From Maribacter algarum (ex Lu et al. 2025) (nom. illeg.) (GTDB taxonomy: Bacteria > Bacteroidota > Bacteroidia > Flavobacteriales > Flavobacteriaceae): a DNA stretch of 64,000 nucleotides. Positions 46,349 to 62,109 of the stretch are shown piece after piece (position 1 is the first letter of the stretch; the number at the start of each line of letters is the position of its first letter). The notes beneath the pieces are model-generated. The model did not search any database. It was given only the letters and a program-made list of their open reading frames with translations, and was not told the origin of the DNA. The translations under genes were made by a program, and so were the position numbers. The stretch covers positions 62,001 to 126,000 of the forward strand of contig CANMAW010000001.1 of the NCBI GenBank assembly GCA_947495915.1, in the 5' to 3' direction.

Positions 46349-47878
46349 ATGCCAGATATCAAAGGAAAGTTAGGAATTGAAGAATTCTATAACGTTATTT
46401 TTAAAGAAGAAACCGTAACCGTAGCCGATGAAGTATTTCAAACGGTAGAGCAGAGTTTTGAATTTCTCAAGAATTTTTCAAAGAACAAAGTGATATATGG
46501 AGTGAATACGGGTTTTGGCCCCATGGCTCAATATAAAATTAAAGATTCGGAAGGAAAAAAACTTCAGTACAACCTGATAAGAAGTCACGCTTCAGGTTCT
46601 GGAAACCCTATAGCACCCAAATATGTAAAAGCAGCAATGCTTGCTCGTTTGAATACCTTAAGTTTAGGTAATTCGGGTGTTCATCGATCAGTAATTGAAG
46701 TGATGGCCACTTTGATAAATAAAAATATAATTCCGTTAATTTATGAACATGGCGGTGTAGGTGCCAGTGGTGATTTAGTACAACTAGCGCATCTCGCTTT
46801 GGTATTAATTGGCGAAGGAGAAGTTTTTTACAACGGAAAACGAACTGCAACCAAAGAAGTTTTTAAAAAGGAAGGCATCACACCTATTTCTGTAGAAATA
46901 CGTGAAGGCTTGGCTTTAATAAATGGCACATCAGTTATGACTGGTATCGGTATTGTAAACACCATTTATACCCGTCGCCTTTTAGAATGGATGATTGCCT
47001 GTTCATCTGCCATTAATGAAATTGTTGAAGCCTATGACGATCACCTATCATTTGAACTCAATCTCACCAAAAAACACCAAGGGCAACGCGAAATTGCGCG
47101 TTCAATGCGAAGCCATTTACGAGATAGCACACTAACACGAAAAAGAGAGCATCATTTATATACCAATAAAAGCGAAGTCAAGATTTTCGAAGAAAAAGTT
47201 CAAGAATACTATTCTATTCGTTGTGTACCCCAAATTTTAGGTCCAATTTTAGATACACTCGACACGGTAGAACGTGTAATGATTGAAGAAGTTAATTCTG
47301 CCAACGACAATCCTATTATAGACCTTAAGAAACAACATGTTTATCATGGCGGCAATTTTCATGGTGATTATGTCTCATTAGAAATGGATAAGCTTAAAAT
47401 AGTGGTTGCCAAAATGAGCATGTTGGCAGAGCGGCAATTGAATTATTTAATGAATTCAAAGCTCAACGACATTTTACCCCCGTTTGTAAATTTGGGTGAA
47501 TTAGGTTTAAATTTCGGAATGCAAGGTGTACAATTTACAGCCACCTCAACTACTGCTGAAAATCAAATGCTATCTAACCCTATGTACGTGCATAGTATTC
47601 CCAACAACAATGACAATCAAGATATTGTAAGTATGGGTACTAATGCTGCATTGATAACTAAAAAAGTTATTGAAAATGCTTTTGAAGTAATGGCCATCGA
47701 AATGATTACTATCGTTCAGGCCATTGAGTATCTTAAAGTTCAAGATAAAGTATCATCAAAAACAAAAAGTATGTATGATGCTGTTCGCAATATAGTTCCC
47801 CCATTCAAAGAAGATTTGGTAATGTATCCTTTTGTGAATGAAGTTAAAAACTATATTATAAATCATGAAAACAAGTAA
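46349..47878 (+). CDS. Aromatic amino acid ammonia-lyase, probably tyrosine ammonia-lyase
   Basis: Deaminates tyrosine to p-coumarate, the aryl starter of the polyene. The MIO cofactor forms from A139-S140-G141 in the GGVGASGDLVQ stretch; the catalytic Tyr loop is IYGVNTGFG (49-57). The selectivity pair is S79-H80 in LIRSHASG. From memory, the well-studied F. johnsoniae tyrosine ammonia-lyase has the same LIRSH stretch and very similar sequence throughout (NPMYVHSIPNNNDNQD, HVYHGGNFHGDY), so TAL is favoured over histidine ammonia-lyase; no hut genes are adjacent. The length of 509 residues is normal. Confidence 0.88.
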   Translation: MPDIKGKLGIEEFYNVIFKEETVTVADEVFQTVEQSFEFLKNFSKNKVIYGVNTGFGPMAQYKIKDSEGKKLQYNLIRSHASGSGNPIAPKYVKAAMLARLNTLSLGNSGVHRSVIEVMATLINKNIIPLIYEHGGVGASGDLVQLAHLALVLIGEGEVFYNGKRTATKEVFKKEGITPISVEIREGLALINGTSVMTGIGIVNTIYTRRLLEWMIACSSAINEIVEAYDDHLSFELNLTKKHQGQREIARSMRSHLRDSTLTRKREHHLYTNKSEVKIFEEKVQEYYSIRCVPQILGPILDTLDTVERVMIEEVNSANDNPIIDLKKQHVYHGGNFHGDYVSLEMDKLKIVVAKMSMLAERQLNYLMNSKLNDILPPFVNLGELGLNFGMQGVQFTATSTTAENQMLSNPMYVHSIPNNNDNQDIVSMGTNAALITKKVIENAFEVMAIEMITIVQAIEYLKVQDKVSSKTKSMYDAVRNIVPPFKEDLVMYPFVNEVKNYIINHENK

Positions 47879-47882
47879 AATT

Positions 47883-49010
47883 ATGTACTCAAAATTAACC
47901 GTAGTTTTAAGTCTATTTTTAGTTTCCTTTTTATCATTTAGTCAAGAATTAGCGCTAGTAAAAGAAGGCGGAAAAGCTGGCTATATTGACAAATCGGGCA
48001 ACTATGTAATAGAGGCTCAATTTGACAATGCAAAAAGCTTTTCAGATGGTTTGGCAGCTATTGAAAAAGACAAAAAATGGGGTTTTATAAACCCCTCTGG
48101 TGAGATAGTTATTCCTGTTGAGTATGACAAGGTTAAATACTTCAATTCAGGGCTAGCTGTAGTATTGAAAGATGATGTATGGCAATATATAAATAAATCA
48201 GGAACGAAAGTAGAAACCCCAACATCAGATAAGTATTTTGATTTCAATGATGGTGTTGCCTTTTACAAAGCAAATGATAAAATAGGCCTTATTGGGTCAG
48301 ATGGTAAGGTAATTCTAGAACCCACTTATGACAATATCAAAAAATTTCGAAATGGCTATGCCAAAGTAAAACAAGGCGATCTTTGGGGAATGATTGATAA
48401 AACTGGAAAATTAATTATTCCTGCCGAATATACGGCAATTGGTAACGAACATACCCCTGCAGGAGTTGATGCAAGAAAAGGAGAGGCATTTGGAATCATT
48501 TCTAACAACACTTTTCATGTTATCGAAGGTGCCGACAAAGTTTGGGGCTTTAAAGGTGATGCAAAATTAGCATACGCTAGAAAAGATAAAAAAATAGGTT
48601 TTGTTAATAGTAATGGAAAATGGGTTATTCAACCTTCTTTTGATAAAGCCCGTGCCTTTGTTGACGGCCTCGCACCCGTTGCTAAGGGCAAAACATGGGG
48701 TTATATTAATGATCAAGGTGAAATGACCATAGCCTCATCATACAGAGATGCTGAAATATTTTCAGAAGGAATGGCCCCGGTGAAAGAAAAAAAATGGGGT
48801 TTTATTGATAAAACTGGAAAACTAATTATTCCTATGGAATATGATATTACCGCAGGATTTGCTTTCTTGGCAGGAAAGGACACTAAAGGCTTTATAAATG
48901 GATTAGCACGAGTAAAATCTAAAAAAGGCTGGGGGTTTTTAGATACCTCAGGAAATTTATTAGGAAACAAGTGGTTCGAAAATGCCGAACCTTTTGTTAC
49001 CATAAAATAA
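47883..49010 (+). CDS. Secreted WG-repeat protein
   Basis: About 375 residues with a signal peptide (LTVVLSLFLVSFLSFSQ) and about eight WG repeats, each with a GYID/WGFI-x-x-x-G-x-x-V/I-I-x-P core (e.g. KWGFINPSGEIVIP, WGMIDKTGKLIIP, WGFIDKTGKLIIP). Such repeats form beta-rich surface or periplasmic proteins with unknown ligands. ATG at 47883 is four bases after the lyase stop; an alternative ATG at 47865 overlaps that gene by 14 bases. It sits inside the pigment operon although no biosynthetic role is known. Confidence 0.85.
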   Translation: MYSKLTVVLSLFLVSFLSFSQELALVKEGGKAGYIDKSGNYVIEAQFDNAKSFSDGLAAIEKDKKWGFINPSGEIVIPVEYDKVKYFNSGLAVVLKDDVWQYINKSGTKVETPTSDKYFDFNDGVAFYKANDKIGLIGSDGKVILEPTYDNIKKFRNGYAKVKQGDLWGMIDKTGKLIIPAEYTAIGNEHTPAGVDARKGEAFGIISNNTFHVIEGADKVWGFKGDAKLAYARKDKKIGFVNSNGKWVIQPSFDKARAFVDGLAPVAKGKTWGYINDQGEMTIASSYRDAEIFSEGMAPVKEKKWGFIDKTGKLIIPMEYDITAGFAFLAGKDTKGFINGLARVKSKKGWGFLDTSGNLLGNKWFENAEPFVTIK

Positions 49011-49801: not shown

Positions 49802-51022
49802 ATGAAAAGAGTCGTTATTACAGGTATGGGTATTTATTCTTGCATAGGAAAAAACCTAGCAGAAGTTAAAGACTCATTATATGAAGGTAAATCAGGAATC
49901 ATTTTTGATCAAGAACGATTAGATTTTGGTTACAGATCTCCGTTTACTGGCATGGTTGAAGAACCTAATTTAAAAGCACACCTATCGCGAAGACAAAGAT
50001 TAAGTTTAGGTGAAGAAGCTGCTTATGCTTTTGCGGCAACGCAAGAAGCCCTCGATAATGCCAAAATTGATCAATCCTTTTTAGATAAAAACGAAGTTGG
50101 TATTATTTATGGTAATGATAGTACTGCAAAATCGACTGTTGATTCAATTGATAAAATCAAAGAGAAAGGTGATACTACTTTAGTAGGCTCAGGCGCTGTA
50201 TTTAAAGCAATGAATTCAACAGTGACCATGAATTTGTCTACTATTTTCAAACTAAAAGGGGTTAATTTTACAATTAGTGCTGCTTGCGCTAGCGGTTCTC
50301 ACTCCATTGGCACAGCATATCATCTTATTAAAAGTGGCTTACAAGACTGCATAATAACCGGCGGTTCACAAGAAATTAACAAAGTAGCTATGGCTTCTTT
50401 TGATGGCTTAGGCGTTTTTGCAACCGGAAGCCTTGATGCCACTAAAGCTTCAAGACCTTTTGATCAAGACCGAAATGGATTAGTACCAAGCGGTGGTGCT
50501 GCGACGGTAATACTTGAAAGTTACGAGTCTGCTGTTAAACGAGGCGCCCCAATTTTAGGAGAGATTATTGGATATGGATTTTCTTCAAACGGCGAACATA
50601 TTTCTACTCCTAATGTTTCAGGGCCTTCAAGAGCTATGCTAAAAGCCTTAGAACAGGCACAAATAAAAGCATCAAAAATTGACTATGTCAATGCGCACGC
50701 CACTTCTACTCCGGTAGGAGATGCCAATGAAGCCAAAGCTATTTATGAAGTTTTTGGCGCATCAAATCCGCCAGTAAGTTCAACCAAATCAATGACCGGG
50801 CATGAGTGTTGGATGGCAGGAGCTAGTGAAATAGTTTATTCCATGTTGATGATGCAACATTCCTTTGTCGCACCTAACATTAACTTAGATAATCCTGATG
50901 AAGACTCAAAAAAGCTAAACTTAATTTCTCAGACATTAAATAAAAAAATTGATGTATTTTTGTCAAATTCTTTTGGATTTGGCGGCACCAATTCTGCCCT
51001 GATTATTAAAAGTGTTTCGTGA
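49802..51022 (+). CDS. Beta-ketoacyl-ACP synthase (KAS I/II type)
   Basis: Condensing enzyme of 406 residues with an intact Cys-His-His site: C162 in ISAACASGSHSIG, His near 299 in VNAHATSTPVGD, and His near 335 in SMTGHECWMAG. It resembles FabB/FabF-type synthases of aryl-polyene and dialkylresorcinol clusters. It overlaps or abuts the ACP gene (stop at 51022, ACP ATG at 51025). It may serve the dialkylresorcinol branch, given its position before darA/darB, or the polyene branch; sequence does not decide. Confidence 0.9.
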   Translation: MKRVVITGMGIYSCIGKNLAEVKDSLYEGKSGIIFDQERLDFGYRSPFTGMVEEPNLKAHLSRRQRLSLGEEAAYAFAATQEALDNAKIDQSFLDKNEVGIIYGNDSTAKSTVDSIDKIKEKGDTTLVGSGAVFKAMNSTVTMNLSTIFKLKGVNFTISAACASGSHSIGTAYHLIKSGLQDCIITGGSQEINKVAMASFDGLGVFATGSLDATKASRPFDQDRNGLVPSGGAATVILESYESAVKRGAPILGEIIGYGFSSNGEHISTPNVSGPSRAMLKALEQAQIKASKIDYVNAHATSTPVGDANEAKAIYEVFGASNPPVSSTKSMTGHECWMAGASEIVYSMLMMQHSFVAPNINLDNPDEDSKKLNLISQTLNKKIDVFLSNSFGFGGTNSALIIKSVS

Positions 51023-51024
51023 TA

Positions 51025-51267
51025 ATGACCAAACAAGATATTGTAGAAAAAATCAATGACTTTCTCATTGATGAATTTGAAGTTGAAGAAGATGATATTG
51101 CATCAGATGCAAACCTAAAAGAGACCCTTGGTCTTGATAGTTTAGATTTTGTTGATTTAGTCGTTGCTGTTGAAAGTAATTTCGGAGTAAAACTCGTGGG
51201 TGAAGACTTTGTCAATGTTCTAACACTTCAAAACTTTTATGACTTGATTGAAAAGAAAGTAGGTTAA
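51025..51267 (+). CDS. Acyl carrier protein 1
   Basis: An 80-residue acidic carrier protein. The phosphopantetheine site is S39 in the LGLDSLDFVDL stretch. ATG at 51025 is preferred over the GTG two codons upstream that overlaps the ketosynthase stop. It carries growing chains for cluster ketosynthases. A second, different ACP is at 61852. Confidence 0.93.
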   Translation: MTKQDIVEKINDFLIDEFEVEEDDIASDANLKETLGLDSLDFVDLVVAVESNFGVKLVGEDFVNVLTLQNFYDLIEKKVG

Positions 51268-51289: not shown

Positions 51290-52174
51290 ATGGCTGAATG
51301 GGAAGGCAAATCTAGAGGCACACTTTTAGGGTATAAAATTTATATCTTTTTTCTTCGAAATTTTGGCATTGGCACTTCTTATCTAGTGCTGCGATTCGTT
51401 ATTTTTTACTACGTTTTATTTTCACCACGTAGCAACAAAGACACTTATTATTATTTTAGAAAACGACACCAACTCTCTAGATATAAAAGCGTCATAAATA
51501 TCTATAAAAGCTATTATACTTTTGGTCAAACCCTTACCGATAAAATTGCAATATCAACAGGTCTAAAAGACAAATTCACCTACGCCCACAATGGCATCGA
51601 GCATATTGACAATCTACTTCAAAAAAATCAAGGTGGTATTCTCATAAGCGGTCATATTGGTAATTTTGAAATTTCACACTATTTTTTAGAAGATCGCTAC
51701 TCTATTTCTAAAATTAGTATGGTAACCACTATGGCTGAACATGCCAACATTCAAGAATATATGGAACGTATTTCTATGAAATCACATTTAAAGTTTATAG
51801 TGGTTCAAGAAGATATGTCACATATTTTTGAAATTCACAAAGCTATTGATGAAGGCGGATTAGTAGTTTTTACAGGAGATCGATATATGCCAGGAAGTAA
51901 AGTTTTAAATGAAATATTCCTAGGTAAAGCAGCTAGCTTTCCTGCAGGGCCATATGTACTTGCATCACGTTTAAAAATGCCAGTACTCTTTGTTTATTTT
52001 ATGAAAGGAAAAAACAGAAAGTATGACCTTTATGCAACTACCGCAGAATTTAAAGCACGTGACGCTCAAGGTCTTTTAAAGGAGTACACCAACAGTATGG
52101 AAGAAATTTTAAAAAAATATCCTCTGCAATGGTTTAATTATTACGACTTTTGGAAAGACAGAGCAAAGCAATGA
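51290..52174 (+). CDS. LpxL/HtrB-like acyltransferase
   Basis: A 294-residue membrane-associated acyltransferase. The H-x4-E catalytic motif is H122-IGNF-E127, the pattern of lipid A late acyltransferases; TGDRYMPGS near 206 is the second family motif. An N-terminal hydrophobic stretch (about 27-44) anchors it in the inner membrane. In aryl-polyene clusters such enzymes are thought to attach the polyene to a lipid or other acceptor. It is therefore one of two candidates, with the BtrH-like protein, for joining the polyene acid to the dialkylresorcinol. Its stop overlaps the darA start by four bases. Confidence 0.85.
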   Translation: MAEWEGKSRGTLLGYKIYIFFLRNFGIGTSYLVLRFVIFYYVLFSPRSNKDTYYYFRKRHQLSRYKSVINIYKSYYTFGQTLTDKIAISTGLKDKFTYAHNGIEHIDNLLQKNQGGILISGHIGNFEISHYFLEDRYSISKISMVTTMAEHANIQEYMERISMKSHLKFIVVQEDMSHIFEIHKAIDEGGLVVFTGDRYMPGSKVLNEIFLGKAASFPAGPYVLASRLKMPVLFVYFMKGKNRKYDLYATTAEFKARDAQGLLKEYTNSMEEILKKYPLQWFNYYDFWKDRAKQ

Positions 52175-53091
52175 AAGAAGTATTAGTTGTTTACTATTCT
52201 CAGACGGGGCAACTCTTTGATATTCTCAAAAATGTAGTTTCTACTATTGTTGACGAGAATACCAAAATCACTTATTTTGAAATAATTCCAGAAAAACCTT
52301 TTGATTTTCCGTGGAATAAGAATACGTTTTTTGACTGCTTTCCTGAATCATTCTTACAAATTCCAGCTCCATTTAAAGCTCCTTCCGAAGAAATTCTAAA
52401 TAAAAAATATGACTTGGTTCTTTTAGGTCATCAGGTGTGGTACCTCACCCCTTCCATTCCTTTAAACTCTTTTCTTAAATCAGAATACGCCAAAAAAATA
52501 CTGAAAAATACACCTGTAATTACAATAATAGGTGCAAGAAACATGTGGATTATGGCTCAAGAGAAAGTTAAAAAACTACTCGTGTCTTGCGAAGCAAAAC
52601 TAGTTGGCAATATTGCATTAGTTGACCGTCACATCAATCACATTAGTGTTATCACTATTGTTCATTGGATGATGAAAGGAAAAAAAGATAAATTATGGGG
52701 TATATTTCCAAAACCAGGTGTATCAGAAAAAGATATCAGAAATGCCTCTAAATTTGGTCACATTATTAAGCAAGATCTCGCTGTAGAAGATTTTTCTTCT
52801 CTTCAAGACAAACTTCTTAAAGCTAATGCTGTTGTCATAAAACCGTTTTTAGTGTTAGCAGACCAACGAGCCAACATTCTATTTTCAAAATGGGCAAATT
52901 TAATTATCAAAAAAGGACCTTCAGGAGATCAAAAACGTAAAAAATGGTTGGTACTTTTTAATTATTATTTGTTATTTGCTATTTGGGTCATCGCTCCCAT
53001 AGTTTTTATTGTATTTTTGATGACCTATATACCCATGTACAAGAAAGTGAATAGAGAGAAAAAGTATTATTCATCTGTTCATCTAAAGTAG
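52171..53091 (+). CDS. darA: DarA, dialkylresorcinol-forming enzyme
   Basis: About 306 residues. The N-terminus (VLVVYYSQTGQ) is flavodoxin-like, the middle has GHQVWYLTPSIPLN, and the C-terminus carries a transmembrane helix (about 270-294). Proteins of this type in flexirubin and dialkylresorcinol loci are called the dialkylresorcinol condensing enzyme; together with DarB they join two beta-keto acyl units and cyclise them. ATG at 52171 (ATGA overlap with the preceding stop) is chosen over the longer frame beginning at 52150. Confidence 0.85.
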   Translation: MKEVLVVYYSQTGQLFDILKNVVSTIVDENTKITYFEIIPEKPFDFPWNKNTFFDCFPESFLQIPAPFKAPSEEILNKKYDLVLLGHQVWYLTPSIPLNSFLKSEYAKKILKNTPVITIIGARNMWIMAQEKVKKLLVSCEAKLVGNIALVDRHINHISVITIVHWMMKGKKDKLWGIFPKPGVSEKDIRNASKFGHIIKQDLAVEDFSSLQDKLLKANAVVIKPFLVLADQRANILFSKWANLIIKKGPSGDQKRKKWLVLFNYYLLFAIWVIAPIVFIVFLMTYIPMYKKVNREKKYYSSVHLK

Positions 53092-53096
53092 AATTA

Positions 53097-54230
53097 ATGA
53101 AAGAAGTTTACATTACAAGAGTATCTAAATTTTTACCAAACGATGCTGTTGAAAATGATCAAATAGAAGAACGTTTAGGTCTTATTAACGGAAAACCGTC
53201 TAGGGCAAAGAACATTGTTCTACGTAGCAATAAAATCAAAAGCCGTTATTATGCAATTGGTAAAAATGGGGCTTTAACACATAACAATACTCAATTAACT
53301 TCTGAGGCCATTAAAGCACTTTGTGATAATGATTTTAAAGCAGACGACATTCAACTATTATCATGTGGAACCTCAACACCTGATCAATTATTACCAGCCC
53401 ATGCTTCTATGGTTCATGGTGAACTAAAAGGAGGAAATATGGAGGTAAATTCTGCTTCTGGTGTTTGTTGTGCTGGCATGAACGCTCTCAAGTATGGCTA
53501 CTTGTCGGTAATGACTGAACAAGTTTCAAATGCTGTTTGCTCAGGCTCTGAAAGAGTGTCTACTTGGATAAAATCTGACGCTTATGAAGATGAAATTGCC
53601 CATCTGTCAGATTTAGAAAATCATCCGATATTAGCATTTAACAAAGATTTTTTACGGTGGATGCTTTCTGATGGAGCTGGTGCCATGTTGCTTGAAAATG
53701 AACCTAAGGGAAAATTTCCGTTGAAAATTGAGTGGATGGAAGGCTTTTCATATGCCTACGAAATGGAAACTTGCATGTATGCAGGCGGTGAAAAAAGAAA
53801 AGATGGAAGCATGAAACCCTGGAGTGAATACTCACCAAGTGACTGGAGTAAAGAATCTGTTTTCGCCATTAAACAAGACACCAAACTTTTAGGAGATCAT
53901 ATTTTAACTAAAGGGGTAGATAGTCTTAAAAAAGCCATTTCTAAAAATGGGGTTAAACCAGAAAATATCACTTACTACCTTCCTCATATTTCATCTTACT
54001 TTTTTAAAGATGGATTATATGAAGAAATGAAGAAACAAGGTGTCAATATTCCTCTTGAAAATTGGTTTTTAAATCTTGATCGAGTTGGCAATATTGGCTC
54101 TGCATCAATTTATGTGATGCTAGAAGAATTAGTAAATTCAGGTCAACTTAAAAAAGGAGATCGTATTTTATTATCGGTACCTGAAAGTGCACGTTTTTCA
54201 TATACATACGCCTATTTAACGGTATGCTAA
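53097..54230 (+). CDS. darB: DarB, ketosynthase III-like dialkylresorcinol synthase
   Basis: A 377-residue thiolase-fold enzyme of the FabH group. The nucleophile is probably C125 in SASGVCCAGMNAL (C124 is adjacent); the late stretch YYLPHISSYF supplies His and LDRVGNIGSASIYV the Asn-Gly region. It condenses the acyl partners from which DarA forms the resorcinol ring. It starts five bases after darA and is followed without gap by the first dehydratase (TAA then ATG), indicating one transcript. Confidence 0.88.
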   Translation: MKEVYITRVSKFLPNDAVENDQIEERLGLINGKPSRAKNIVLRSNKIKSRYYAIGKNGALTHNNTQLTSEAIKALCDNDFKADDIQLLSCGTSTPDQLLPAHASMVHGELKGGNMEVNSASGVCCAGMNALKYGYLSVMTEQVSNAVCSGSERVSTWIKSDAYEDEIAHLSDLENHPILAFNKDFLRWMLSDGAGAMLLENEPKGKFPLKIEWMEGFSYAYEMETCMYAGGEKRKDGSMKPWSEYSPSDWSKESVFAIKQDTKLLGDHILTKGVDSLKKAISKNGVKPENITYYLPHISSYFFKDGLYEEMKKQGVNIPLENWFLNLDRVGNIGSASIYVMLEELVNSGQLKKGDRILLSVPESARFSYTYAYLTVC

Positions 54231-54669: not shown

Positions 54670-55128
54670 ATGAGAAAGCCTCGTTATAATATTAATATTG
54701 AGAATTTTCTACCGCATCGTTACCCTATGTTAATGGAGTGCACTACCCCTTATTTAGATGCAAATTCTGTTGAAACTCATTTTAAGATAACCCAAAATTC
54801 GATATTTACCGACCGTAAAGGTAGGTTTACAGAACCCGGACTAATTGAAACCGCAGCCCAAGCTTGCTCAGCAATTACAGGTCAAGACTTTTTTGAAGAC
54901 GACGATTTAGCAGGAGAAGGCAATAAAGTTGTTGGTTACATTAGCGCAATCAAAAAACTAGAAATTAATTTCTTACCAGTAATTGGCGACATATTAATTA
55001 CCAAAGCTTCCTTAATTTCAAGGTTTGACACAGGTGAAATGACCATGTGCACCATTAAATCTTCTACTTTTAGAGGTAATGATTTAGTCATTAATTGTAC
55101 CTTTAATTTTCTAATTCATGAGGTATAG
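54670..55128 (+). CDS. FabZ-like 3-hydroxyacyl-ACP dehydratase 2 (hotdog fold)
   Basis: A 152-residue hotdog protein beginning with IENFLPHRYPMLME, close to the FabZ start, then KGRFTEPGLIETAAQACSAITG. As in the preceding paralogue, the acid in the helix is kept and the GHFPG His is absent; both share the order R/K-F-C/T-E-P-G-L-I-E. One base separates the genes, which points to a heteromeric dehydratase like the pairs in aryl-polyene clusters. Direct evidence for pairing is lacking. Confidence 0.82.
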   Translation: MRKPRYNINIENFLPHRYPMLMECTTPYLDANSVETHFKITQNSIFTDRKGRFTEPGLIETAAQACSAITGQDFFEDDDLAGEGNKVVGYISAIKKLEINFLPVIGDILITKASLISRFDTGEMTMCTIKSSTFRGNDLVINCTFNFLIHEV

Positions 55129-55130
55129 CC

Positions 55131-55529
55131 ATGAAGACCAATGAAGTACCACAAGACAAAAGTCATTTAGAGTCAGTAAGTAGAGAAGTTTATTATGCTG
55201 TTGATGAAAATGGTGAATATAAAAAAGCCCTTAGCTCAGGTTGGGATGTAAAAACTATTGCCCTTGAAAATGCACTTGAAGAAATTGAAAGGCGTGTTCA
55301 AGATGCTAAAACTCGTGTATTAGAAAATAAAACAAGTCCTATAGAATATTATATGGAACTCCATAAAATGGATCTTACGGTATTATCAAGTTATGTAGGC
55401 ATGTGGCAATGGCGCGTTAAACGACATTTTAAACCTTCTGTTTTTAAAAAACTATCTTCTAAAATCTTACAGAAATATGCTGATGTTTTTGAGATTTCTA
55501 TGGAAGAGTTACAACAAATCAAATCATGA
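55131..55529 (+). CDS. Small helical protein of unknown function in the pigment cluster
   Basis: A 132-residue, charged, mostly helical protein with no signal peptide or membrane helix. The central part (ALENALEEIERRVQDAKTRVLEN) may form a coiled coil; the end has WQWRVKRHFKP followed by a Lys-rich helix and the YADVFEISMEELQQIKS tail, which resembles a small helix-turn-helix or adaptor element. It overlaps the BtrH-like gene by four bases (ATGA), so the two are translationally coupled and may act together. No function is recognised. Confidence 0.75.
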   Translation: MKTNEVPQDKSHLESVSREVYYAVDENGEYKKALSSGWDVKTIALENALEEIERRVQDAKTRVLENKTSPIEYYMELHKMDLTVLSSYVGMWQWRVKRHFKPSVFKKLSSKILQKYADVFEISMEELQQIKS

Positions 55530-56521
55530 AAATAGATTTCACGCATCATCAATCTGCGCATTGTGAAAATGGCGTGGTATCTAATCTCATGAGCTACAAT
55601 GGTTTTAAAGTGAGCGAACCTATGGTATTTGGTATTGGCTCAGGTTTACTTTTTTGTTACATTCCATTTTTAATGGTTAATCATGCCCCAGCAATTACCT
55701 ACCGCGCCATGCCCGGTTTTATTTTTAAACGTTTTGCTAAACGTACAGGGATAAAAATTAAGCGTGAAAAATTCACCAATAAAACATCTGCTCAAACACG
55801 CTTAGATGAAAATTTAAACCGCAATAATCCTGTTGGTTTACAAGTTGGCGTATATGGTTTGGTTTATTTTCCTGATGAATATCGATTTCATTTCAATGCC
55901 CATAATTTAGTGGTTTACGGAAAAGAAGGTGACAACTATTTAATTAGTGACCCTGTTATGGAAAATGTCACCACATTAACCACGAAACAATTAGAAAAAG
56001 TGCGATTTGCTAAAGGTGCATTTGCTCCAAAAGGTCACATGTACTACCCTATTGCTTTTCCAGAAGAATTACAACTTGATAAAGCGATTGTAAAAGGCAT
56101 AAAGCACACCTGTAGAGATATGTTGGCACCGGTACCCTTTGTTGGTGCAAAAGGCATTCGAACTGTTGCCAAATTAATTCGAAAATGGCCAAAGAAAAAA
56201 GGCGTGAAGGTTGCCAATCATTATTTGGGTCAGGTGGTACGCATGCAAGAAGAAATCGGCACTGGCGGTGGCGGATTCAGGTATATTTATGCTGCATTTC
56301 TACAAGAGTCAAGTAAAATATTAAAAAACGAACGCCTTTCTGAACTTTCTAAAGAAATGACCGAAATTGGAGATTTATGGCGTGATTTTGCCCTAGATGC
56401 CTCTCGTATATACAAAAATAGAAGTGCTCAAGATGATGCCTATAATAAAGTTGCGGATCAATTGCTTATAATTGGAGACAAAGAGGAAGCCTTCTTTAAA
56501 AAACTGAAGAAAGCCATATAA
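55526..56521 (+). CDS. BtrH-like protein (butirosin BtrH N-terminal domain family), candidate acyltransferase
   Basis: A 331-residue protein. The N-terminal domain has C13 in SAHCENGVVSNL, H126 in HFNAHNLVVYG and D142 in LISDPVM, spaced as the Cys-His-Asp triad of papain/C39-like folds. The C-terminal half (about 185-331) is helical. In butirosin biosynthesis BtrH transfers an acyl group from an ACP to the aminoglycoside. In this setting, with two ACPs, darA/darB and a polyene pathway, an ACP-polyene to dialkylresorcinol acyl transfer is a reasonable but unproven inference. Followed after 32 bases by the ABC transporter. Confidence 0.78.
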   Translation: MKIDFTHHQSAHCENGVVSNLMSYNGFKVSEPMVFGIGSGLLFCYIPFLMVNHAPAITYRAMPGFIFKRFAKRTGIKIKREKFTNKTSAQTRLDENLNRNNPVGLQVGVYGLVYFPDEYRFHFNAHNLVVYGKEGDNYLISDPVMENVTTLTTKQLEKVRFAKGAFAPKGHMYYPIAFPEELQLDKAIVKGIKHTCRDMLAPVPFVGAKGIRTVAKLIRKWPKKKGVKVANHYLGQVVRMQEEIGTGGGGFRYIYAAFLQESSKILKNERLSELSKEMTEIGDLWRDFALDASRIYKNRSAQDDAYNKVADQLLIIGDKEEAFFKKLKKAI

Positions 56522-56553: not shown

Positions 56554-57297
56554 ATGATCAAAATTAACGAACTGAACAAAAAGTATAAAGGGGCTGAACA
56601 TTATTCAGTAGCTGCATTGACTTTGCACATTGAGGAACAAGAAATTTTTGGATTACTTGGTCCAAATGGTGCTGGTAAAACTACCTTGATTTCCATGTTA
56701 AGTTCTTTGATTAAGCCAACTTCAGGCTCTTTTTCAATTGATGGCCTCAATTTTCAAGAACATAGTAATGAACTTAAAAAAATAATTGGAATTGTTCCTC
56801 AAGAATATGCTTTATACCCATCTTTAACTGCATTCGAAAACTTATCTTATTTCGGTAGTACTTACGGCATTAAAGGCAATCAACTAAAAGATAAAATTAA
56901 CGAGCATCTTGAAACCCTAGGACTTTTAAACTTTGCTCATAAAAAAATTAGCACTTTTTCCGGAGGAATGAAAAGGCGCATCAACCTAATTGCTAGTATT
57001 TTACACGAACCCAAGGTCTTGTTTTTAGATGAGCCAACAGTAGGTGTTGACGTACAATCAAAAAATGTGATCATTGAACATTTGAAAAAATTAAACGCCA
57101 CTGGCACCACGATGATTTATACATCACATCACTTAAACGAGGCCGAAGATTTTTGCACTAGAGTTGCCATTATTGATGATGGAAAAATCATTACTAAAGG
57201 CAAACCCAATGCACTTGTTGCTGGTCACAGTAATGCCCGTAATCTAGAAGATGTTTTTTTAGCCATCACCGGAAAAGCCCTGCGTGATTATGCATAA
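56554..57297 (+). CDS. ABC transporter ATP-binding protein
   Basis: A 247-residue ATPase. Walker A is GPNGAGKT (36-43), the signature is FSGGMKRR (about 138), Walker B is LFLDEPTVGVD (about 160-170), and the switch His is in YTSHHLNE. It energises the permease encoded next, overlapping its start by eight bases. Given position, export of the pigment or a precursor across the inner membrane is likely; drug or lipid export cannot be excluded. Confidence 0.92.
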   Translation: MIKINELNKKYKGAEHYSVAALTLHIEEQEIFGLLGPNGAGKTTLISMLSSLIKPTSGSFSIDGLNFQEHSNELKKIIGIVPQEYALYPSLTAFENLSYFGSTYGIKGNQLKDKINEHLETLGLLNFAHKKISTFSGGMKRRINLIASILHEPKVLFLDEPTVGVDVQSKNVIIEHLKKLNATGTTMIYTSHHLNEAEDFCTRVAIIDDGKIITKGKPNALVAGHSNARNLEDVFLAITGKALRDYA

Positions 57298-58561
57298 GCT
57301 TTTCGCCTCAACATATAAGGAGTTTTTATTGCTTACCCGTGATATCGGTGGATTGGCAATTCTATTTTTGATGCCCATTTTGCTAGTGATTACCATTACT
57401 ACCATTCAAGACGGAACATTTAAAATAATAAAAGAAACTAAAATTCCGGTGTTATGGGTAGATGAAGATCAAGGTGAAATATCAAAATCGATTTTCGAAG
57501 GTTTTTCTAATTCTAAAACGCTTGAATTAATTACAGCATCATCTGAAGATGAAGCAAAATCTTCCGTTTTTAAAGGCGACTATCAACTTGCTATTGTAAT
57601 TCCTAAAAATCTGTCGACCGATTTAGCTGCAAAGGTTGACGAGAACGTTTCAGGAATTATGGCCAAGTTCGGACTTGAAGAAGACTCGGCTACGGTCGTC
57701 GATAAAACTCCTATAGCTCAAAAAGAAATTCGTCTGTACTTCGATCCTGCAACACAATATGCCTTTAAAAGTTCAATAAAAAATGGTATCAATCAAATGA
57801 TTGCCAAAGTCGAAACGCAAAGTATTTACAAGGCATTTCAAGAGCAATTGGAAGAAGACACATCAGAAGATTTTTTTGAAACCGAAAGCTTTATTTCCTT
57901 TAAAGAGATAGTGCCCAACGGCATGCAAGATGATGCGATTCCGAATGCTACGCAGCACAACATTCCCGCTTGGTCGTTATTTGCTATTTTCTTTATTATT
58001 CTTCCCCTATCCATTAATATGGTAAAAGAAAAAAACCAAGGTACTTTTGTTCGGTTGCGCACCAATCCCATTTCGTACGCCACGGTTCTAGGGGGAAAAA
58101 CGTTAGTGTTTTTAGCTGTAGCCTTACTTCAGTTTGGCATCATGTTGCTGATAGGGGTATTCCTTTTCCCCATCATTGGATTACCAAAATTGGAAATTTC
58201 AGGAAATGTGAGCATCTTATTTGTAGTTGCCTTTTTTGCTGGTTTAGCGGCGATCGGACTTGGACTATTACTAGGAACCATTGCAAAATCACAAGAACAG
58301 TCTGCTCCTTTTGGAGCTACCTTTGTGGTGATCTTAGCAGCTCTTGGAGGTGTATGGGTTCCTGTTTTTGCAATGCCAAGTTTCATGCAAAGCATATCAA
58401 GATTATCACCAATGAACTGGGGACTCAACGCTTTTTACGATGTTTTTTTAAGGAATGTTGACTTTCCTGAACTCATTCCTGAAATATCATTGTTATTTTT
58501 GTTTTTTATAGCCACCACGCTTATAGCAATTCTATATAACAAGCGACAAAACAGCGTATAA
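57290..58561 (+). CDS. ABC-2 type transporter permease
   Basis: About 423 residues. One N-terminal membrane helix (about 22-40) is followed by a long periplasmic domain of about 185 residues and five further helices from about residue 225, the layout of ABC-2 exporters of the drug/lipid group (YhhJ-like). ATG at 57290 is taken; the frame opens at 57284. It directly precedes the thioesterase gene, whose TTG start follows the TAA by one base. Confidence 0.88.
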   Translation: MHKLFASTYKEFLLLTRDIGGLAILFLMPILLVITITTIQDGTFKIIKETKIPVLWVDEDQGEISKSIFEGFSNSKTLELITASSEDEAKSSVFKGDYQLAIVIPKNLSTDLAAKVDENVSGIMAKFGLEEDSATVVDKTPIAQKEIRLYFDPATQYAFKSSIKNGINQMIAKVETQSIYKAFQEQLEEDTSEDFFETESFISFKEIVPNGMQDDAIPNATQHNIPAWSLFAIFFIILPLSINMVKEKNQGTFVRLRTNPISYATVLGGKTLVFLAVALLQFGIMLLIGVFLFPIIGLPKLEISGNVSILFVVAFFAGLAAIGLGLLLGTIAKSQEQSAPFGATFVVILAALGGVWVPVFAMPSFMQSISRLSPMNWGLNAFYDVFLRNVDFPELIPEISLLFLFFIATTLIAILYNKRQNSV

Positions 58562-61261: not shown

Positions 61262-61855
61262 TTGAACAATACCTTTTACATACAACGATATGCGCATATT
61301 AGCGATCATGAAGTTTCTCTAAACGGAGAAACATTGTATGAGAATACAACTGATGACTTTTCGGAATTTATTAAAGGTGCTTACCAGCATTTACAGATCG
61401 ATTATTCCAAATTTTTTAAGATGGATAATCTAAGTAAACTAGCATTTATAGCTGCTGATGTTTTATTAGAAAACGAATCTGAAAACAATATTGGATTGGT
61501 TTTTTCAAATAAGGCATCGAGTCTCGATACTGATCGAAAACATCAAGAATCTTTACAAACCTATGCGAGTCCGGCTGTTTTTGTATACACACTTCCTAAT
61601 ATTTGTTTAGGTGAAATAAGCATTAAGCATAAATTGTATTCAGAGAATGGGTTTTTCATTTTCGATAAATTCAATGCACAGGCGCTACATACCTACGCGA
61701 ATAGTCTATTACAAGAAGATAAAGCAGAAAAAATGTTATGTGGTTGGGTTGATTTTGACAACGGAAATTATGATGCTTTTTTGTACGTTGTTGCTAAGAA
61801 AGGTACTTTTGTACATTCTACAACAGAAATAAACCGATTATACCAGATCAAATGA
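61262..61855 (+). CDS. Half-size ketosynthase-like protein without active-site residues
   Basis: A 197-residue protein from a TTG start. It looks like the N-terminal half of a ketosynthase: NIGLVFSNKASSL corresponds to the IGLI-S-T-x-G strand, LPNICLGEISIKHKL to the segment before the active site, and the following part reads FFIFDKFNAQAL where active synthases have the nucleophilic Cys. The C-terminal half with the two His is absent. It cannot condense by itself; a scaffold or ACP partner role is inferred from the four-base overlap with the ACP gene. It is not an obvious fragment: the frame is intact and tightly packed. Confidence 0.65.
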   Translation: MNNTFYIQRYAHISDHEVSLNGETLYENTTDDFSEFIKGAYQHLQIDYSKFFKMDNLSKLAFIAADVLLENESENNIGLVFSNKASSLDTDRKHQESLQTYASPAVFVYTLPNICLGEISIKHKLYSENGFFIFDKFNAQALHTYANSLLQEDKAEKMLCGWVDFDNGNYDAFLYVVAKKGTFVHSTTEINRLYQIK

Positions 61856-62109
61856 GTGAATTAAAATTAGAATTAAAGGAAAAAATAATTGAGCAATTGA
61901 ACCTTGAAGATATTGCTATCGAAGAAATTGCCGATACTGATCCGTTATTCGGAGAAGGATTAGGACTTGATTCTATTGATGCATTAGAACTGATTGTAAT
62001 GCTTGATAAAGATTATGGTATCAAATTGGCTGACCCTAAAGAGGGTCGTAAGATTTTCGAATCTATTGATACGATGGCCGGTTATATTGAAGAACACCGT
62101 AGCCGATAA
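61852..62109 (+). CDS. Acyl carrier protein 2
   Basis: An 85-residue ACP with the phosphopantetheine Ser41 in GLGLDSIDALEL. It differs from the first ACP and is closer to ACPs of aryl-polyene loci. Start overlaps the half-KS gene by four bases. A strong terminator follows six bases after the stop. Confidence 0.93.
   Translation: MSELKLELKEKIIEQLNLEDIAIEEIADTDPLFGEGLGLDSIDALELIVMLDKDYGIKLADPKEGRKIFESIDTMAGYIEEHRSR

Follow-up and report, generated by a model that had tools for sequence, protein, structure and literature searches.

We propose that DarH, a 331-residue protein encoded at positions 55526 to 56521 (plus strand) of a 64,000-nucleotide stretch of DNA from the marine bacterium Maribacter algarum, hereafter the window, is probably a papain-like cysteine acyltransferase of the BtrH/CcbD type that links the two halves of the orange pigment flexirubin on the cytoplasmic side, with the small protein DarG as its partner. 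Flexirubins are classic marker pigments of Bacteroidota. An earlier note on this DNA knew of no proven enzyme for the joining step and put forward the BtrH-like protein as a candidate ester former; we likewise found no proven enzyme in the open-licence literature, and the candidate has gained support from its co-occurrence across genomes, from its dissociation from the LpxL-like gene of the cluster, from the way in which the DarG-DarH pair travels and from its fold match.

In the proposed ping-pong mechanism, Cys13 of DarH, activated by His126 and Asp142, would take the finished aryl-polyene acyl chain from an ACP as a thioester, and a phenolic hydroxyl of the dialkylresorcinol (DAR) made by DarA and DarB would then attack the acyl-Cys13 and leave as an aryl ester. 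ACP1, ACP2 and a CoA ester are all possible acyl donors. DarG would be made in step with DarH and would most likely bind ACP or greasy substrates, and the product that contains DAR is probably cargo of the ABC exporter encoded next to the pair.

The DarG-DarH pair and its gene cluster

The overlapping pair that had been announced at 55131 to 56521 is indeed read there. DarG (132 amino acids; 55131 to 55529, plus strand) lies directly 5' of DarH, its open reading frame ends in TCATGA, and DarH starts at the same ATG, which gives the ATGA overlap. Such an overlap is frequent in relatives but does not occur in all of them: measured from the start of the DarH match and the DarG stop, the extremes are an overlap of 11 bases and a gap exceeding 200 bases. 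Both window proteins belong to families that NCBIfam had named before this analysis, since DarH matches NF053550 ("BtrH-related acyltransferase DarH") with 512 bits against a cut-off of 300, and DarG matches NF053545 with 202 bits (cut-off 170) and NF053536 with 198 bits (cut-off 70). The acyltransferase label of DarH was thus already known; it is a database label whose name states neither acceptor nor product, and no experimental assignment of DarG or DarH was found in the open-licence literature. What we contribute is the dissociation from the LpxL-like gene, the fold evidence and the travelling pair.

The pair had also been placed between the dialkylresorcinol genes and an exporter, and the layout agrees. 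Upstream lie DarA, the DAR aromatase of acceptor synthesis (52171 to 53091; named by position and from papers, with a weak flavodoxin-like Pfam match), and DarB, the DAR ketosynthase/cyclase (53097 to 54230; NCBIfam NF053539, 644 bits, cut-off 550); downstream lie an ABC transporter ATPase (56554 to 57297) and an ABC-2 permease (57284 to 58561), both of which are DAR-module genes, all four being on the plus strand. The ATPase gene is missing from the polyene-only stretches L130, L131 and L136. Two small dehydratase-like frames stand between DarB and the pair, the second of which (DH2, 54670 to 55128, plus strand) ends just before DarG; DH2 is not found between DarB and DarG in L125, L126 and L138 to L140. 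Directly before DarA, the plus strand encodes an LpxL-like acyltransferase (51290 to 52174), a polyene-module gene, and the same strand carries two possible donors of the polyene chain, ACP1 (51019 to 51267) and ACP2 (61852 to 62109; named from its ACP-like sequence), the latter having counterparts beside the DarG, DarH and ABC genes in several genomes with split clusters. The flexirubin cluster continues past the end of the window. NCBIfam recognises FlxA, FlxB, DarB, DarG and DarH as well as LolA2 and LolB2, and an FlxJ-family methyltransferase scores 444.5 bits, below its cut-off of 560.

A search of public genomes returned 434 stretches that encode a DarH relative; each of the best 80 of the 434, which were examined, carries DarG, DarH and the two ABC genes. 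The order LpxL-DarA-DarB-DH1-DH2-DarG-DarH-ABC-ABC-TE-KS occurs in 76 of these best 80; the remaining four agree with it except that fewer genes precede DarH. Among the best 80 are Aequorivita capsosiphonis DSM 23843 (L026), for which a flexirubin-type pigment is described on the basis of the flexirubin test (PMC5932025), and Aquimarina muelleri DSM 19832 (L017), which is said in the same source to have been reported as positive in that test (PMC5932025).

Some other features of these clusters deserve mention. An eight-WG-repeat protein is encoded between FlxA and FlxB at 47865 to 49010 of the window and is found in 73 of the best 80 loci; in L130 and L131, the plasmid clusters with polyene genes only, it does not lie between FlxA and FlxB. 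Past the window, the cluster continues with an RND exporter that has a PlsC domain fused to it, an oxidase resembling carotenoid desaturases, a cupin/JmjC-like frame (by eye) and a C45 lipoprotein acyltransferase/hydrolase (L112:14164-17850, L112:17852-19399, L144:254-1126 and L113:327-1997).

In 131 of the 133 loci, which together comprise 126 distinct DarH sequences and include a few genomes twice, DarG adjoins DarH on its 5' side and is read from the same strand; at the loci of G425 and G500, no DarG was found near DarH or near DarB. The two genes adjoin even where DarA and DarB lie elsewhere. In the split genomes, the position of the pair varies: it has no other recognised gene beside it in G017, adjoins the polyene genes LpxL-ACP1-KS in G614 and an ACP-KS-KS trio in G579, follows DarA in G619 and accompanies the ABC pair in G400, G436, G531 and G558. 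The gene for an enzyme that links what two modules produce could lie with either of them. DarG is most likely a dedicated partner of DarH.

The description of DarG as a small, unknown, helical protein was correct as to size; "unknown" no longer applies, given the NCBIfam families, and the helical character holds in part, the model showing a beta hairpin plus helices at a poor confidence (pLDDT 53.6). With this poor model, Foldseek returned no match under E 0.7, and searches of Pfam, NCBIfam and, with a profile, the PDB found no DarG relatives outside its own family. A Cro/C1-type helix-turn-helix, which the C-terminal half suggested by eye, was discarded, as neither Pfam, the PDB profile search nor the model supported it.

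Two further gene groups recur in split genomes. The trio ACP2-KS_C-KS_D is frequent in split dar loci (L139, L140, L146 and L153), exists in G253 and G300 apart from the set that belongs to the polyene cluster, and may make DAR precursors. A gene for an FAD-binding, halogenase/geranylgeranyl-reductase-like protein of 557 to 588 amino acids recurs at DarG-DarH, either adjoining the pair (L147:10546-12219, L148:8532, L153:10618-12297 and L159:7167-8849) or near it (L149:13207-16840, L150:5622 and L151:5361), the calls in L148, L150 and L151 coming from weak similarity only.

Family, catalytic residues and fold of DarH

DarH belongs to the BtrH-type acyltransferases: the Pfam domains BtrH_N (171 bits, cut-off 29.7; residues 12 to 143) and DUF4872 (216 bits; residues 155 to 327) both match in full and above the gathering score, and together they span nearly the whole protein. 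The Cys-His-acid triad of this family is present as well, in the form that the earlier note had read from the BtrH N-terminal domain. In particular, the predicted nucleophile Cys13 (codon 55562 to 55564), the predicted base His126 (55901 to 55903) and the predicted third member Asp142 (55949 to 55951), all on the plus strand, are invariant in 112 of 112 distinct orthologues. Cys13 and His126 are also retained in seven of seven distant BtrH-like relatives, in which an Asp occupies the column of Asp142 in two cases and the preceding column in five. Common to DarH and all seven aligned relatives are, furthermore, His12-Cys13 and, in DUF4872, the motif Glu-(2)-Gly-Thr-Gly-Gly-(2)-Phe-Arg.

The AlphaFold2 model of DarH (pLDDT 82.5, pTM 0.84) was built on 48 close relatives, 78 to 90% identical to the query, and is unreliable at residues 44 to 54. 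Compared with the PDB by Foldseek, it displays the fold of carrier-dependent cysteine acyltransferases: the first 17 rows are chains of AziU3/U2, CtaG and CcbD (E 3.5e-9 to 4.9e-5), the matches to AziU3, CtaG and CcbD covering the whole length of DarH, and row 18 is a C39-like peptidase (E 2.3e-4, TM 0.38 by query length). A Lip_A_acyltrans domain is absent from DarH among Pfam families at E up to 1. PDB searches by sequence gave nothing convincing with DarH or DarG, the best match of the DarH profile being a designed coiled coil (E 0.00086). Several members of this fold transfer an acyl group from a carrier thioester to a small acceptor, which is the chemistry needed for DarH. Since CcbD, CtaG and BtrH acylate amines, O-acylation of a phenol by DarH would be an extrapolation.

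As far as can be seen by eye, neither DarG nor DarH has an evident N-terminal signal, which fits an ACP thioester as donor. A hydrophobic stretch at residues 33 to 51 (mean hydropathy 2.03) suggests that DarH may touch or enter the membrane, where greasy substrates lie.

BtrH-like proteins are also encoded on plasmids (62 records, with Acinetobacter, Streptomyces and haloarchaea among them); they are 23 to 28% identical to DarH where aligned, and their genes stand in other contexts in the three regions examined of the 62 records. A second BtrH-like family of Bacteroidota scores 152 to 187 bits with the DarH family model, below the cut-off of 300 (L119:6315-7322, L120:9933-10910, L121:9444-10424, L122:9568-10548, L160:8612, L161:8548, L162:8379 and L163:8159). 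The Cys and the His are retained in the four aligned members (L119 to L122), and these loci have no DarG and no recognised dar or polyene cluster nearby.

Co-occurrence across genomes and competing explanations

DarH was found over its cut-off in 33 of 392 Bacteroidota genomes and in 0 of 14 control genomes. Among the 392, stand-alone DarB (at least 498 bits) occurs in the same 33 genomes and in G238. We did not count DarB-like frames of 633 to 675 amino acids in G276 and G254 (380 to 405 bits) or an interrupted match in G219 (162 bits); the score that divides stand-alone DarB (at least 415 bits) from fused DarB-like frames was chosen with the results already known. A panel of 38 genomes comprised the 33 with DarH, G238, G276, G254, G219 and G158, which has a DarH-like match below the cut-off. 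Within this panel, DarA and DarG are each present in all 33 DarH genomes and in no others; the polyene ketosynthase reaches at least 356 bits in those 33 and in G238, and no more than 181.3 bits in the remaining four. LolB2, used as a second polyene marker, is over its cut-off in 30 of the 392 genomes (29 of the 33 with DarH, and G238); it is missing in G099, G269, G320 and G370, which carry other polyene genes. The control genome of Bacteroides ihuae has LolB2 over the cut-off, DarB-like matches below it and no DarH match.

A denser class sample of 296 genomes, which overlaps with the first one, was searched for DarH and DarB and contained 46 genomes with DarH, 48 with stand-alone DarB (one of them split over two contigs) and 46 with both. 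DarB without DarH thus remains in two cases, G238 and G511; the latter is fragmented (360 contigs, with DarB on a contig of 5.5 kb), and in it DarA and DarB are present and no DarH match was found. Fisher tests gave 3e-47 and 5e-52; they ignore shared ancestry, and the genomes being related, these values are not true probabilities. Both samples are centred on Bacteroidota, and the Pseudomonadota side rests on papers. Since no genome with DAR genes but without polyene genes was found in the 392-genome phylum sample, co-occurrence alone cannot tell ester formation apart from a different DAR-specific step, for instance export.

The frames set apart from DarB merit a separate remark. According to Pfam, a DarB-like ketosynthase is fused to a C-terminal haem-oxygenase-like iron enzyme domain in frames of 616 to 645 amino acids (L115:640-2538, L116:8214-10151 and L118:8419-10269, in G276, G254 and G182). 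G276 and G254 carry the fusion without DarA or DarH, and G182 has it as a second copy; DarB-like frames of 616 to 635 amino acids, judged by length, occur in six more genomes, and in Pseudoalteromonas THAF3 the ketosynthase and the iron-enzyme domain are encoded by neighbouring genes. The fused ketosynthase looks like part of a separate pathway. On plasmids of Bacteroides and Prevotella (L127:13425-15150 and L128:13361-15131), DarB is accompanied by a regulator gene, of TetR type in Prevotella, and no DarA or DarH was found in the stretch examined.

Work on DAR synthesis helps to narrow down what DarG and DarH do. In a heterologous host, DarA and DarB are enough to produce DAR (PMC3992019), and for P. 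chlororaphis PCL1606, which makes free DAR, the cluster is described as consisting of darABC and the two regulators darSR (PMC6403133). It follows that DarG and DarH are not needed for the ring. The DAR-specific tasks that remain are esterification and export, of which the ABC pair can serve export and the acyltransferase fold esterification.

It is conceivable, if unlikely, that DarH acts on DAR outside the polyene ester, by supplying or trimming acyl chains, by another acylation or by C39-peptidase-like work with the ABC exporter. DarG and DarH do track DarA and DarB and often adjoin the ABC pair, no genome with DAR but without polyene was found in the phylum sample to separate DAR-specific roles, and C39-like structures match DarH too, more weakly. 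However, DarA and DarB suffice for DAR, and DarG-DarH stands without an adjoining ABC pair in G017, G573, G444 and G579. As for the peptidase, Peptidase_C39 reaches 11.9 bits against a gathering score of 22, and it is AziU3, CtaG and CcbD that DarH matches over its whole length; we thus rejected DarH as a C39 peptidase.

The other acyltransferase genes of the cluster can be judged from genomes in which the modules are dissociated. G238 has a polyene cluster with the LpxL-like gene, C45, RND-PlsC, LolA2 and LolB2; it has no DarA, DarG or DarH match in the whole genome and no ABC pair in the stretch examined. Plasmids of Aureispira anguillae (L130) and Persicobacter psychrovividus (L131) show the same polyene order and keep the LpxL-like gene, and no DarA, DarB, DarG, DarH or ABC genes were found in the plasmid stretches examined. 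Conversely, DarA-DarB-DarG-DarH-ABC-ABC adjoin polyene genes in G099 and G370, where a genome-wide search found no LpxL-like match of the cluster type (the G370 locus ends at a contig end). The PF03279 genes of these two genomes, with 115 to 134 bits, are like ordinary lipid A enzymes, the cluster type scoring 47 to 70 bits in six other genomes. The LpxL-like gene therefore follows the polyene, and DarG and DarH follow the combination of polyene and DAR.

We consider it improbable that another enzyme of the cluster makes the ester, be it the C45 autoproteolytic lipoprotein, the PlsC domain of the RND exporter, both encoded shortly after the end of the window, or FlxW, a ligase-like protein suggested in 2014. 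C45 matches its family with 242 bits, has an AAT domain and scores above 500 bits in 31 of the 33 DarH genomes, and a PlsC-type domain is found at residues 883 to 996 of the exporter. However, both genes also occur in the polyene-only genome G238, on which ground we rejected them; in addition, G370 has no C45, and the match in G099 is marginal (38 bits). Moreover, C45 has a lipobox-like N terminus by eye, which would put its site of action beyond the cytoplasm and apart from ACP thioesters. FlxW was proposed for the joining step in Chitinophaga (PMC3992019); in the text of that source available to us, the proposal is a stated possibility and no test is given (PMC3992019).

Ester formation by the LpxL-like protein, with some other task for DarG and DarH, was the competing candidate of the earlier note and now appears very improbable: the protein belongs to the lipid A acyltransferase family (PF03279, 48 bits) with an HX4E motif, lies directly before DarA in the window and occurs in 31 of the 33 DarH genomes, but it is retained without DAR genes (G238, L130 and L131), has a relative in the aryl-polyene cluster L132 (3 of 34 matching plasmid records examined) and has no match in G099 and G370 despite their DarA, DarB, DarG, DarH, ABC and polyene genes, and we rejected it on this double dissociation. 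More likely, the LpxL-like protein attaches the polyene to a lipid; in Escherichia coli, lipid attachment has been proposed for ApeD and ApeJ, mutants of which accumulate late intermediates (PMC8253772).

Comparison with known systems

Among the characterized relatives by fold, the lincosamide condensing enzymes CcbD/LmbD resemble DarH in the whole-length fold of CcbD and in the Cys-His-acid triad. They differ in forming an amide on an amino sugar and in having Glu as the acid, and the identity in structural alignments is 11 to 13%. CcbD is described as carrier-protein dependent, with a Cys-His-Glu triad and a ping-pong mechanism, and it accepts fatty acyl groups (PMC12945683). CtaG of closthioamide biosynthesis, which matches the DarH fold with E 9.8e-9 at about 11% identity, is proposed to transfer hydroxybenzoyl from a carrier to a beta-alanine chain on another carrier (PMC6772006). 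The PDB titles of CtaG list variants at C11, H128 and D144, that is, compared by numbering, the same residues in the same order and at nearly the same positions as C13, H126 and D142 of DarH.

AziU3 and AziU2 act in aziridine formation in azinomycin biosynthesis. AziU3 is the best fold match of DarH (E 3.5e-9), and its crystal structure is that of a complex with a second protein; a PDB search with the DarG profile gave three matches up to E 5, none of them an AziU2 chain. BtrH forms an amide. It is described as an ACP:aminoglycoside acyltransferase whose domain is close to C39 and C70 peptidases (PMC10318531).

In a wider form of the proposal, towards which we lean with some reserve, DarG-DarH would be a two-protein, ACP-dependent O-acyltransferase of the BtrH/CcbD/CtaG cysteine-acyltransferase fold, with DarG as its dedicated small subunit, that forms an aryl ester on a resorcinol hydroxyl in place of an amide and serves bacteria as a general device for fusing aryl polyenes with DARs, as in flexirubin and arcuflavin. 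If DarG-DarH is the joining enzyme of flexirubin, the step could be tested in vitro with two small proteins, a fold seen in amide formation would gain phenol esterification as a new chemistry, and a simple gene test would be available for aryl-polyene producers that make resorcinol hybrids.

The closest parallel in gene arrangement comes from Azoarcus sp. BH72, whose pigment is a proposed polyene-DAR ester and whose dar cluster includes a BtrH-like gene, darE (PMC3949708). As with DarG-DarH, its darD-darE consists of a gene for a conserved hypothetical protein followed by the BtrH-like gene, between darB and an ABC ATPase gene (PMC3949708); darE is annotated there as a BtrH-like peptidase, and we liken it to DarH from this description (PMC3949708).
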